Of a stretch of DNA of 64,000 bases, positions 52,084 through 62,884 are shown in pieces. The stretch is from positions 1 to 64,000 of the forward strand of contig JAAVZI010000036.1 in assembly GCA_022791575.1 (NCBI GenBank). Reading direction: 5' to 3'. A program made the translations under genes and the position numbers. The number at the start of each line of letters is the position of its first letter. Within the stretch, counting starts at the first letter, position 1. Source of the stretch: Lachnospiraceae bacterium (GTDB lineage Bacteria; Bacillota; Clostridia; Lachnospirales; Lachnospiraceae). The notes under the pieces were generated by a model, which was given only the letters and a program-made list of their open reading frames with translations, was not told the origin of the DNA and made no database searches.

Positions 52084-53955
52084 ATGATAAAACCAGCCCT
52101 GTCTGATGAAATTTTACTCAGTATTGACAAGCCCGCCCGTTATATCGGCAATGAAGTAAATATGGTCAAAAAAGATCCCCAAAAAGCAGCTATCCGCTTT
52201 GCTATGTGTTTTCCCGATGTATATGAGATTGGAATGTCCCATCTTGGCATTCAGATTTTGTATGATATGTTCAACCGCCAGGAGGATATCTATTGTGAAC
52301 GCGTCTATTCTCCATGGATGGACTTAGACCAGGTAATGAGAGAGCAGCACATTCCTCTGTTTGCCTTAGAAAGCCAGGAGCCAGTAAAGGATTTTGATTT
52401 TCTCGGAATCACCATCCAATACGAAATGTGCTACACCAATATTCTGCAGATTCTGGATCTAAGCCAGATTCCACTGATGGCCTGTGATCGTACTATCGAA
52501 CATCCGTTTGTGATTGGCGGCGGTCCTTGTACTTATAATCCAGAACCACTGGCAGACTTTTTTGATCTTTTTTATATCGGAGAGGGAGAAACCGTTTATT
52601 TTCGGCTAATGGACCTTTATAAAGAGTGGAAGTGTTCAAAGAGTACCGATAGACAAGCATTTCTGCGGATGGCTGCTCATGTGCCGGGAATTTATGTCCC
52701 GTCTCTGTATGAAGTATGCTATCAGGAAGACGGGACGTTGGCCTCTTTCGAACCCAAAGAAGAGCAGATTCCCAGAACCGTTGAAAAACAAGTAGTTATG
52801 GAGGTCAGCAATACCTATTATCCAACTCGGCCAGTGGTTCCATTTCTAAAAGTGACTCAAGACCGGGTAGTCTTGGAAATCCAACGTGGCTGTATCCGCG
52901 GCTGTCGTTTCTGCCAGGCAGGTATGCTCTATCGGCCTACTCGTGAACGGGATGTGGAAGTATTGAAGAATTATGCATACGAAATGCTGAAGTCTACCGG
53001 TCATGAAGAGATTTCTCTAAGTTCCTTAAGTTCCAGCGATTATTCTTCCTTAAAAGAACTGGTGACCTTTCTAATTGAAGAATTCAAGGGAAAAGGGGTC
53101 AATATCTCTCTGCCGTCTCTGCGTATTGATGCATTTTCTCTGGATGTTATGAGCAAGGTGCAGGATGTGAAAAAGAGCAGCCTGACTTTTGCGCCGGAAG
53201 CCGGTTCTCAGAGGCTGCGGAATGTGATTAATAAGGGCCTGACAGAAGAGGTGATATTAAAAGGAGCTCAAGAGGCATTCAAGGGCGGATGGAATAAAGT
53301 AAAACTATACTTTATGCTGGGATTACCTACCGAAACAGAAGAGGATATGAAAGGGATTGCACATCTTTCGGAACAGGTAGCGGAAGTCTATTATGATACA
53401 GTTCCCAAAAGTGAGCGCCACGGCAAATGTCAGATTACGGCCAGTTCTTCCTTTTTTGTTCCCAAGCCTTTTACGCCATTTCAGTGGGCATCAATGAATA
53501 CAGCAGAACAGTTTTTAACGAAAGCACATATGGTAAATGATGAATTTAAGGCTCAATTAAACCGCAAAAGCCTGAAATACAACTGGCATGATGCACAGAC
53601 AACCATACTGGAAGGGGTATTGGCCAGAGGTGACCGCCGGGTTGGTGCTGTGATTTTAAATGCCTACCACAGAGGCTGTATCTATGATGCCTGGTCGGAA
53701 TATTTTGATTATGATAAATGGCTGGCAGCATTTGCAGAAGAGGGTGTGGATATGGATTTTTATACAACCCGCGAACGAGAATTGGACGAGCTGCTTCCAT
53801 GGGATTTTATTAACATTGGGGTAACGAAAGCATTTTTAAAAAAAGAATGGCAAAAAGCCAAAAGAGAAGAAATAACTGCGAACTGCAGACAGAGTTGTTC
53901 TGGCTGCGGGGCATTGATCTACGAAGGAGGTGTATGCATTGAAAATCAGAATTAA
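52084..53955 (+). CDS. B12-binding-like radical SAM protein (TIGR03960 type)
   Basis: 623 residues. N-terminal B12-binding-like fold (residues ~40-180: FAMCFPDVYEIGMSHLGIQILYD, VIGGGPCTYNPEPLADFFDLFYIGEGE) lacking the classic DxHxxG. The radical SAM core has the CxxxCxxC cluster Cys270/274/277 in IQRGCIRGCRFCQAGM. The C-terminus has further cysteines (Cys601, 605, 608, 618). This family is always next to the small partner gene that follows and to RNase G. Its reaction is unknown; tRNA/rRNA or cofactor modification is often supposed. It overlaps its partner by 17 bp. Confidence 0.92.
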   Translation: MIKPALSDEILLSIDKPARYIGNEVNMVKKDPQKAAIRFAMCFPDVYEIGMSHLGIQILYDMFNRQEDIYCERVYSPWMDLDQVMREQHIPLFALESQEPVKDFDFLGITIQYEMCYTNILQILDLSQIPLMACDRTIEHPFVIGGGPCTYNPEPLADFFDLFYIGEGETVYFRLMDLYKEWKCSKSTDRQAFLRMAAHVPGIYVPSLYEVCYQEDGTLASFEPKEEQIPRTVEKQVVMEVSNTYYPTRPVVPFLKVTQDRVVLEIQRGCIRGCRFCQAGMLYRPTRERDVEVLKNYAYEMLKSTGHEEISLSSLSSSDYSSLKELVTFLIEEFKGKGVNISLPSLRIDAFSLDVMSKVQDVKKSSLTFAPEAGSQRLRNVINKGLTEEVILKGAQEAFKGGWNKVKLYFMLGLPTETEEDMKGIAHLSEQVAEVYYDTVPKSERHGKCQITASSSFFVPKPFTPFQWASMNTAEQFLTKAHMVNDEFKAQLNRKSLKYNWHDAQTTILEGVLARGDRRVGAVILNAYHRGCIYDAWSEYFDYDKWLAAFAEEGVDMDFYTTRERELDELLPWDFINIGVTKAFLKKEWQKAKREEITANCRQSCSGCGALIYEGGVCIENQN

Positions 53956-59073: not shown

Positions 59074-59102
59074 ATTATAACATACCTTTTTTCAAAATGC
59101 AA
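59074..59102 (-). promoter_or_regulatory. Sigma-A promoter for lexA
   Basis: On the minus strand: TTGCAT (complement of 59097-59102), 17-bp spacer, TATAAT (complement of 59074-59079) with a TG extension. The first LexA box (59100-59113) overlaps its -35. Confidence 0.75.
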
Positions 59103-59242
59103 ACAAATGTTCATAATTTTCGAAAATTTGTTCCAAACATATATTCCGAATATTTGTTCGAAAATATATTGACAAACAAATGTTCTTATATTATAATCAA
59201 TGTAAACAAATGTTCGGAATATATGTTCGGAATATATGTTCG
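59100..59242. promoter_or_regulatory. Array of about eight LexA (SOS) boxes
   Basis: Matches to CGAAC-N4-GTTCG: 59100-59113, 59121-59134, 59134-59147 (weak), 59147-59160 (CGAATATTTGTTCG), 59173-59186, 59203-59216, 59216-59229 and 59229-59242 (both GGAATATATGTTCG). Starts at 59121/59134/59147 and 59203/59216/59229 are exactly 13 bp apart, so adjacent boxes share their end base; 59147 to 59173 is two such steps. The array covers the -35 of lexA, the spacer of the yneA-like promoter and its early transcribed region. Confidence 0.85.
59169..59197 (+). promoter_or_regulatory. Perfect sigma-A promoter for the YneA-like gene
   Basis: TTGACA (59169-59174), 17-bp spacer, TATAAT (59192-59197), full consensus. 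A LexA box lies in the spacer (59173-59186) and three more lie just downstream, so it should be silent until SOS induction and very strong afterwards. Confidence 0.85.
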
Positions 59243-59341
59243 AATAATAACGAAAAATTTCTGTATCGTTGTCATATGGAAATAAGAGAGTTTTCATCCA
59301 TATTGATTAGCAGAGTGAAAATTATAAAGGAGGTCTCCATT

Positions 59342-59875: not shown

Positions 59876-61237
59876 ATGAAATTCAATATCAATAAAAAAT
59901 ATGTATATTGGGGAATTACCGCTTTTTTGGTTCTGGCGGCAGCAATTATATTTAATTACGGAGTTTCCAGACTGGCTATACTGGGAGATTTTTTATCTAC
60001 ATTACTGAAGATTTTAACGCCTATTATCTATGGTTTTATTATTGCATACCTACTTACACCTGCAGTTAATTTTATTGAAAGAAAGATATTGTATCGGATC
60101 GCAGGGCTATTCCATATTAACGCAGCTGAAAGAAAAAAATTAAAATCCGTACTGCGTATGGTTTCCATTTTTATAACTCTGGCAATAACCATTTTTATAT
60201 TATATCAGTTGTTATATATGCTGATTCCTGAATTGGTAAACAGCATTTCCAGTATGATCTCTTCTGCACCTGATTATTGGAATAAATCCAAAGGATGGAT
60301 CGAAAAGCTATTTAAAAATCAGCCGGTAATAGAAGAGGCCTTTTTAAAATATTCTGATTCCGTGTTGAATTATTTGACCAAAGATCTGCTTCCGCACATC
60401 AATGATATATTAATGAATTTTTCGGTCGGAATCTGGGATTTTGTAGTTGGCGTGAAAAATGTTGCTATTGGAGCAATTGTTTCTATTTATATTTTAAATA
60501 GCAAAGAGAAGTTTGCCGCAGGTAGTAAAAAAGCATTATATTCCATTCTTAGCTGTAATAAATCCAATTTGTTTCTGCATAATCTGCGTTTTGTGCATAC
60601 GAAATTCGGCGGCTTTATTATTGGTAAGATTATTGATTCATTTATTATTGGAGTTATTTGTTTTATTGTCATTTCCTTTATGGATATGCCCTATGAGATC
60701 CTGATCAGTGTAATCATCGGAGTAACAAATGTCATTCCTTTTTTTGGACCATATATTGGAGCAATTCCTTGTGCCTTTTTGATTTTAATTGTAAATCCAG
60801 TACAATGTATCTATTTTATTATCTTTATTCTGATTTTGCAGACCTTTGACGGAAATGTACTTGGACCTAAAATTTTAAGTGAATCTACTGATTTAACGAG
60901 TTTTTGGATTATTTTTTCTATATTGGTCGGCGGTGGATTATTCGGTGTCGTTGGAATGTTTATTGGGGTTCCGTTTTTTGCAGTTATTTATGCTGTAGTC
61001 AATTTACTCATCGACCGTTCTTTAACCAGCCGGGAACTGACAACAGATACAGAAAAATATATCAATTTAAAATCCATTGATATGCAGCCTGACAGTGAAT
61101 CAGATAAAATAGAATATACTTTTCATTATCTGGAAGAGGATAACGATGAATTTAAAACTTTAAAAATGTCAACTAATACAAAATCTCATTTTTCCAGTTA
61201 TTTGAAAAAATGGAAGGATTCTCATAAAAAGTCATAG
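59876..61237 (+). CDS. AI-2E (TqsA/PerM) family transporter
   Basis: 453 residues with about eight helices: paired helices near the N-terminus ([26 protein letters not shown]), a ~130-residue central soluble part, then the family core [51 protein letters not shown] and [14 protein letters not shown].. with [33 protein letters not shown]. Members export small molecules or ions; AI-2 itself is not implied. The ~65-residue acidic tail is cytoplasmic. Confidence 0.9.
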
Positions 61238-61257
61238 AAAGTAAAGGAATAACTATT

Positions 61258-61722
61258 ATGAAATTATTAATTCAACGGGTAACCCAAGCCAGCGTCGCGC
61301 TGAAAGAAAATTCTGCATCTTCGGTATCTGGACAGCCTGAAATGATCGGAAAAATTAATAAAGGATTTCTGGTTCTTTTAGGTGTTGGACAAGAAGATAC
61401 AAAAGAAGATGCAGATCGTCTTGTAAAGAAAATGCTCCAGCTGCGGATTTTTGAAGACGAGCAAGGAAAAACCAATCGTTCCATCCAAGATGTTCAGGGC
61501 GAATTATTGATTGTTTCACAGTTTACTTTATACGCAGACTGCCGTAAAGGAAACCGGCCCAGTTTTATTAATGCAGCTAAACCCGAAACTGCCAATGAAT
61601 TATATCAATATTTTATAGAAAAATGCAGAGAGACTATTTCTAAAGTTGAAACGGGAAGCTTTGGTGCAGGAATGGAAGTTTCTTTGATCAATGATGGACC
61701 ATTTACCATTATGTTAGAATGA
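61258..61722 (+). CDS. dtd: D-aminoacyl-tRNA deacylase
   Basis: 154 residues. [14 protein letters not shown] start, the [17 protein letters not shown] motif with catalytic Thr, and [20 protein letters not shown] (cross-subunit GP motif, here GPF). Removes D-amino acids and glycine from mischarged tRNAs. There is a short insert ([11 protein letters not shown]) in the first hairpin. The TGA stop lies inside the truncated repeat element E3. Confidence 0.96.
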
Positions 61723-61803
61723 GGAGGGACCCACGAAGTGGGAGGACTCCTGGTGTCAGTATTGGATTCATATCACGTCGCAAAATCCGAGTTTTACGAC
61801 GTT
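61722..61803 (+). repeat. Truncated palindromic repeat element, copy E3
   Basis: GAGGAGGGACCCACGAAGTG and the rest of the central hairpin of E1/E2 (GGGAGGACTCC, then CTGGTGTCAGTATTGGATTC), without the outer arms or 15-bp units. It is followed by its own small inverted repeat CGTCGCAAAA/TTTTACGACG (61776-61803). It directly abuts the dtd stop and fills the gap to the recombinase gene. Confidence 0.75.
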
Positions 61804-61822
61804 GAAGAAAGGAAATAAACCT

Positions 61823-62884
61823 ATGCAGGAAAAAACATATAAAGAATTAAACGATCTGGAGAACATCCGCAAGCTGCGCGAAGTATTAAAGTCTTTGCCA
61901 GCATTTTTAAAAACCTATTTCCGTTCCCTGGAAACAACAAAAAGTACACGGACCCGTCTGTCTTATGCATATGACTTAAGCATCTTTTTTGAGTTTCTAC
62001 GGCAGAACAATCCGCAATTTGCCAAACAGGAACCTGCCTCCATGAAAATTCCGGCGGATATACTAGATGGACTGACTAAGATTGATATCGAAGAATATAT
62101 GTCTTTCTTACAGGAATATCAGAATAAAGATGGAAAAAATCGCTCTAATAAAGATTCTGGAATTCTTCGTAAAATGGCTGCACTGCGCTCTATGTATCAC
62201 TATTATTATATTAATGAAGATATTAAAAATAATGCACCGGCTCAGATTGTAATTCCGAAAAAGCATACCAAAAACATTATCCGGTTGGATGTGGACGAAG
62301 TTGCCGATATGATTGATTATGTAGAGTCAGGCGAAAAATTAACCGCCGCTCAGCGAAGAACCCATGAAAAGACTAAATTAAGAGATACTGCCATAGTGAC
62401 TCTGCTGTTAGGCACCGGTATTCGTGTATCGGAATGTGTAGGATTGGATTTATCTGATGTTGACTTTCGAAATAATCGGATTCGTATTATACGAAAAGGT
62501 GGAAACGAAGATATCGTTTACTTTGGAGATGAAGTTGAGGATGCATTAAAAGCCTACATCAATCTGGACCGCAATCAGATCGAACCTCTCGAAGAACACA
62601 GACAGGCACTCTTCATCTCTTTAAAGAAACAGCGTATGTCCGTGCGTTCTGTAGAGCGTATGGTGAAAAAGTATGCCAGCCAGGTCACGACTGTGAAAAA
62701 GATAACCCCCCATAAACTCCGCAGTACTTATGGAACTAACCTCTATAATGAAACAGGTGATATCTATCTGGTTGCTGAAGTTCTGGGACATAAAGATGTC
62801 AATACAACCCAAAAGCATTATGCAGCCTCCTCCGAAGACCGAAAACGCAGAGCCGCTTCGATTGTCAGACTAAGAGAAGAATAA
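61823..62884 (+). CDS. Tyrosine recombinase, XerC/XerD type
   Basis: 353 residues from ATG 61823 behind AGAAAGGA (an upstream in-frame TTG at 61802 lies in the repeat). SAM-like core-binding domain at the N-terminus (TRTRLSYAYDLSIFFEFLRQ), catalytic domain with Arg201 (LLGTGIRVSECVGLDLSDVD), Lys in RIIRKGGNEDIVYF, His297 and Arg300 (TPHKLRSTYGT), His323 (LGHKDVNTTQKHY) and Tyr333. All catalytic residues are kept. Slightly longer than standard Xer (~300). No attachment sites, excisionase or phage genes are near, so a chromosomal Xer-like role is more likely than an integrase. Confidence 0.92.
   Translation: MQEKTYKELNDLENIRKLREVLKSLPAFLKTYFRSLETTKSTRTRLSYAYDLSIFFEFLRQNNPQFAKQEPASMKIPADILDGLTKIDIEEYMSFLQEYQNKDGKNRSNKDSGILRKMAALRSMYHYYYINEDIKNNAPAQIVIPKKHTKNIIRLDVDEVADMIDYVESGEKLTAAQRRTHEKTKLRDTAIVTLLLGTGIRVSECVGLDLSDVDFRNNRIRIIRKGGNEDIVYFGDEVEDALKAYINLDRNQIEPLEEHRQALFISLKKQRMSVRSVERMVKKYASQVTTVKKITPHKLRSTYGTNLYNETGDIYLVAEVLGHKDVNTTQKHYAASSEDRKRRAASIVRLREE

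Follow-up and report, generated by a model that had tools for sequence, protein, structure and literature searches.

Eight LexA boxes were found at 59100–59242 in the window (the whole 64,000 nt stretch of DNA analysed), all in the intergenic region between lexA and a divergently transcribed yneA-like gene, and six of them form two triplets with an exact 13 bp step, such that neighbouring 14 bp boxes share one base. Pairing of LexA boxes at this step is a conserved habit of the Lachnospiraceae that is well supported by comparison of loci and almost absent outside the family. It is probable (roughly 0.6) that the region forms a shared bidirectional lexA/yneA operator, in which LexA dimers would sit next to each other at the 13 bp step and repress both genes tightly together.

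The lexA-yneA intergenic region

The features of the region are listed in Table 1. The LexA protein includes the Pfam LexA_DNA_bind and Peptidase_S24 domains. The product of the divergent gene contains a Pfam LysM domain (4.5e-9) and matches the NCBIfam YneA model PRK14125 (7.9e-16) with 57.8 bits, slightly under the cut-off of 60, and 'YneA-like' is therefore the right name. The adjacent and divergent placement of a gene for a small division suppressor with membrane and LysM segments is that of a divergent lexA-yneA locus. No Rfam element was found within the 64,000 nt window, and the genes downstream (59876–62884), encoding an AI-2E family transporter, a D-Tyr-tRNA deacylase and a tyrosine recombinase, are ordinary.

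Table 1. Features of the lexA-yneA intergenic region and flanking genes (window coordinates)
Feature	Coordinates	Strand	Sequence	Remarks
lexA, SOS repressor, 204 aa	58368..58979	-		NCBIfam TIGR00498 equivalog, 232 bits vs cut-off 111
lexA promoter	59074..59103	-	TTTGCA-N18-TATAAT (or TTGCAT-N17)	Sequence consensus only
LexA box 1	59100..59113		CAAACAAATGTTCA	Over lexA -35; start -34 from lexA -10, commonest slot in relatives
LexA box 2	59121..59134		CGAAAATTTGTTCC	First of triplet 1
LexA box 3	59134..59147		CAAACATATATTCC	Second of triplet 1 (13 bp step from box 2); left half of conserved 27 bp composite
LexA box 4	59147..59160		CGAATATTTGTTCG	13 bp after box 3
yneA promoter	59169..59197	+	TTGACA-N17-TATAAT	Perfect consensus
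LexA box 5	59173..59186		CAAACAAATGTTCT	Covers last two bases of yneA -35 and spacer; start -19 from yneA -10, commonest slot in relatives
LexA box 6	59203..59216		TAAACAAATGTTCG	Over expected yneA transcription start
LexA box 7	59216..59229		GGAATATATGTTCG	13 bp after box 6
LexA box 8	59229..59242		GGAATATATGTTCG	13 bp after box 7; same sequence as box 7
Ribosome-binding site of yneA-like gene	59327-59334		AAGGAGGT	
yneA-like cell-division suppressor, 111 aa	59342..59677	+		N-terminal membrane segment and LysM

The boxes resemble the Gram-positive palindrome CGAAC-N4-GTTCG and not the enteric box CTGT-N8-ACAG. The sequence features of a Gram-positive SOS-box operator, namely a palindromic 14 bp box, overlap with or adjacency to the promoter of an SOS gene and a lexA gene in the genome, are present, and the shared base of overlapping LexA operators is seen at six boxes. 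Those six, at 59121, 59134, 59147, 59203, 59216 and 59229, had been reported with exact 13 bp spacing in a first-pass annotation of the sequence, and all were recovered, including the identity of the last two. Addition of the solitary boxes at 59100, which overlaps the lexA -35, and 59173, inside the yneA promoter spacer, brings the number to the eight that had been estimated, and the boxes overlap both the lexA promoter and the yneA promoter as described. A strong promoter in the yneA direction is also present in 158 of 170 relatives. The description of the boxes as a phased array holds within each triplet but not for the region as a single array, as the triplets are 56 bp apart (59147 to 59203), which is no multiple of 13, and scores at the intervening slots, 59160 and 59186, fall well short of the threshold. 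The slot at 59160, between the boxes at 59147 and 59173, is empty, and the remaining distances are 21 bp (59100 to 59121), 26 bp (59147 to 59173) and 30 bp (59173 to 59203).

When the scoring matrix was derived exclusively from LexA boxes in other orders, the eight boxes ranged from 10.3 to 17.2 against a maximum of 21.9, and several are weak, with those at 59121 and 59134 scoring ~10–11. Dinucleotide shuffles of the intergenic region (2000) gave a mean of 0.08 boxes and at most 2, compared with the 8 observed. Across the 3.48 Mb of the genome, the overlapping-pair pattern was found without mismatch only in the lexA/yneA region.

The 13 bp step in Lachnospiraceae and other groups

Regions upstream of lexA were collected from relatives and from named genomes (Roseburia, Anaerocolumna, Mediterraneibacter, Blautia and other Lachnospiraceae), and after removal of near-duplicates the set comprised 159 Lachnospiraceae loci, with 27 loci representing the remaining families of the order and 69 the remaining orders of the phylum. 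The mean number of boxes per locus was 4.1, 2.3 and 2.5, respectively, whereas reversed sequences gave totals of only 20, 1 and 5 boxes for the three sets. Among the 159 Lachnospiraceae loci, the steps between neighbouring boxes were 12 bp in 2 cases, 13 bp in 163, 14 bp in 26, 15 bp in 9 and 16 bp in 6, with none at 5–11 bp and none at 17–19 bp. A step of 13 bp was present at least once in 109 of the 159 Lachnospiraceae loci and lacking in the other 50. Outside the family it was seen in 1 locus among the 69 of other orders and in none of the 27 of other families in the order; the layout in these groups is typically three solitary boxes 28–40 bp apart. The period is thus kept in relatives, and the view that the spacing is peculiar to this genome gives way to a family-wide rule. 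The locus studied stands out for its triplets and for its eight boxes, the highest count of all loci compared.

When the set was reduced to one locus per genus (79 Lachnospiraceae loci), 70 13 bp steps remained, whereas random re-placement of the boxes within an unchanged span gave 20.9 on average and never more than 35. With the matrix trained only on other orders and a threshold of 8, 146 13 bp steps were found, in 104 of 159 loci. At a strict threshold of 12, 14 steps of 13 bp were left vs 12 of 14 bp, and of 150 Lachnospiraceae genomes, 11 had a pattern of two strong boxes at 13 bp, 12 at 14 bp and 2 at 12 bp. One partner of a 13 bp pair is nearly always weak, and the loss of the excess at the strict threshold indicates that the rule concerns composite pairs of a strong and a weak box.

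Boxes 7 and 8 are the only Lachnospiraceae 13 bp pair with identity at 13 of 13 positions, and a recent 13 bp duplication is probable there. This case would fit an origin of most of the extra boxes as by-products of 13 bp slippage and shared descent, with three or four boxes functional, and shared descent does explain part of the pattern. In a FastTree tree of LexA (133 rows), at least 16 changes of the 13 bp trait are required (14 for the lexA side, 21 for the yneA side), such that locus counts are not independent, though this tree cannot separate gains from losses. However, the members of 13 bp pairs are alike at 8.7 of 13 positions vs 9.0 of 13 for other boxes of the same locus, suggesting that the pairs are old and retained rather than the product of fresh slippage, and recent slippage is therefore not supported as a general source of pairs. 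Slippage could duplicate 14 or 15 bp units just as easily, and the half-site bases A, A, T and T of both boxes are 98–100% kept across genera. An origin as by-products is accordingly very unlikely.

Within the Lachnospiraceae, no LexA residue was significantly associated with presence of the step (best Fisher p 0.0016 in 250 tests). Lachnospiraceae LexA proteins differ from those of other orders at many positions of the DNA-binding domain (C33, E34, K39, T41, S43, E49, T50 and N54); the differences at residues 33–54 are a lead for inter-dimer contact that is not tied to the spacing.

Box slots and a conserved 27 bp composite

Boxes in relatives occupy recurrent slots. Relative to the yneA -10, these are in the spacer (start -19 or -15), on the lexA side (about -46 and -59, or -55/-56 and -69) and downstream (about +11 to +16 and +24 to +29), and with the lexA -10 as reference, boxes most often start at -34 (93) and -47 (57), 13 bp apart. 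The 13 bp steps are divided between a lexA-side group (93) and a yneA-side group (66), and pairs lie at variable distances from each other whereas their internal step does not vary. Lachnospiraceae carry doubled boxes at a rigid 13 bp step on both the lexA side and the yneA side, an apparent elaboration of the older three-box layout.

The consensus of the lexA-side pair is a 27 bp composite, CAAACATATATTCCGAAAATTTGTTCG, in which the outer half-sites are near consensus and the inner half-sites carry a fixed non-consensus A (frequency 0.70 at column 10 and 0.74 at column 18). Boxes 3 and 4 (CAAACATATATTCCGAATATTTGTTCG) match the composite. As the lexA -35 sits farther left, in box 1, the lexA side here appears to have extra boxes. 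In many relatives the -35 TTG of lexA comes from the composite itself, where CAAAC is the complement of GTTTG. The conserved composite helps to locate the operator in common gut bacteria.

The fixed inner A, the location of the composite directly upstream of the yneA -35 and the complementarity of its CAA to the TTG of the lexA -35 could all be understood if the weak partners served other purposes, as an A/T-rich UP element before the yneA -35 or as the source of the lexA -35 within CAAAC, and only resembled LexA boxes. This is very unlikely, as the TTCCGAA centre of the composite is nearly fixed and is not A/T-rich, and the yneA-side pair, which is downstream of the -10 and beyond the action of an UP element, has the same 13 bp step.

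Comparison with known LexA operators

Three LexA sites are reported upstream of lexA, next to a divergent yneA-like gene, in Clostridium thermocellum and Bacillus subtilis (PMC8457756). The gene pair, the CGAAC-N4-GTTCG box and the sharing of boxes by two promoters are the same as here, but there are three sites rather than eight boxes, and 13 bp overlapping pairs were almost absent from the loci scanned outside the Lachnospiraceae, a set without B. subtilis. In enteric colicin operons, two overlapping LexA boxes are reported to keep a dangerous product off and to be bound by two LexA dimers cooperatively (PMC2994835, PMC11332147). These boxes are of the CTGT-N8-ACAG type and serve plasmid toxin genes in twos, whereas the operator described here is at chromosomal lexA/yneA and has up to eight boxes with a fixed 13 bp step. 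Multi-box and overlapping LexA operators are thus already known, and it is the 13 bp arrangement that is new; no description of 13 bp LexA pairs, and no published LexA assembly of side-by-side helical clusters, was found in the literature searched, which covered few subscription papers.

A Gram-positive example is dinBox1/dinBox1b of phage GIL01, in which a strong site is overlapped by a weak one close to a transcription start. On this pair, Bacillus thuringiensis LexA showed no cooperativity and perhaps no simultaneous binding (PMC4551915). That pair differs in having an 11 bp step (our reading of CGAACaagcGTTTTataagtGTTCG in PMC4551915), only one half-site, and a need for gp7 for stable binding. 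The avoidance of steps below 12 bp in the Lachnospiraceae fits this non-cooperative result. If overlapping boxes were likewise mutually exclusive at 13 bp, one dimer would bind each pair and the weak site would raise local LexA or slow its escape without cooperativity. The behaviour of the GIL01 pair in EMSA, SPR and footprints and a LexA footprint of 18–20 bp, which exceeds 13 (PMC4551915), together with the weakness of one partner in most pairs, argue for exclusive binding. However, a sharp peak at exactly 13 bp with 12 bp avoided is not predicted, since rebinding should tolerate steps of 11–16 bp, and exclusive binding is considered rather unlikely, if less so than the other alternatives.

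Geometry of the 13 bp step and the proposed packing

Consensus boxes placed at a 12 bp step share CG without conflict, and there is none at 14 bp, whereas at 13 bp the shared base is subject to a C/G conflict. As the 12 bp step would be the better fit to the consensus but is hardly ever used, the choice of 13 bp looks geometric and not a matter of sequence convenience. B-DNA has 10.5 bp per turn. On this geometry, half-site centres are separated by 8 bp inside one box and by 5 bp across the 13 bp junction, and as 5 bp is about half a helical turn, the facing DNA-binding domains would be on opposite faces. Successive dimers would be turned by ~86 degrees, in agreement with the earlier proposal that they lie on different faces of the DNA, and adjacent DNA-binding domains could grip opposite faces without clash.

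In the joint repression favoured here, LexA dimers would occupy boxes over both promoters and the yneA start, silencing the division inhibitor and autoregulating lexA, until LexA cleavage after DNA damage led to release from the operator. Boxes that are individually weak would probably together give high local occupancy and tighter, steeper repression, which may be switch-like as the first-pass annotation suggested, and cooperativity of LexA at 13 bp pairs is plausible. A more specific form of this model, in which Lachnospiraceae LexA packs by direct inter-dimer contact at a 13 bp quarter-turn step, so that short helical clusters, each with as many as three dimers, flank the yneA promoter and make the lexA/yneA switch cooperative, is put forward only tentatively. 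The usual view takes each SOS operator as a single, independent box, with affinity setting the timing. The exact, family-wide 13 bp packing at the lexA/yneA hub suggests selection on operator geometry and not only on box strength, and the natural variation (12, 13 or 14 bp steps; one, two or three boxes; a family with the step and others without) is a comparative system for LexA cooperativity.

In Clostridioides difficile, operator-bound LexA cannot contact RecA filaments, and dissociation of LexA is slowest at the operators of lexA, recA and uvrB (PMC4234289). By analogy, as bound LexA is barred from RecA, extra boxes may plausibly delay induction.

LexA boxes elsewhere in the genome and in relatives

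A genome-wide 13 bp habit was rejected, as the genome contains no other perfect pair and only a pair with one mismatch upstream of recA (C86:26668-26692; recA at C86:25776-26564). The recA promoter of a genus mate also has a 13 bp overlapping LexA pair, and most recA promoters of relatives have a single box. A strong 12 bp pair at C12:12702 is inside a gatB-like reading frame and was for that reason taken as chance. Good matches to the LexA box at 52497, 15110 and 28157 of the window are inside reading frames that appear by eye to be radical-SAM-like, chorismate-synthase-like and histidine-kinase-like, respectively, and are probably also chance.

In a second genome of the same genus (G001, 78% complete), no match to lexA was found and the best DNA match was to another box-bearing promoter. 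Promoters with boxes in that genome (G001:C5) and in a further relative (G281:C95:4918-4942) precede a gene for a protein starting MEKLGILTDAAKYDVACTSSG or similar, which resembles a radical-SAM DNA-repair protein, and the boxes in the latter form a strict 13 bp pair.
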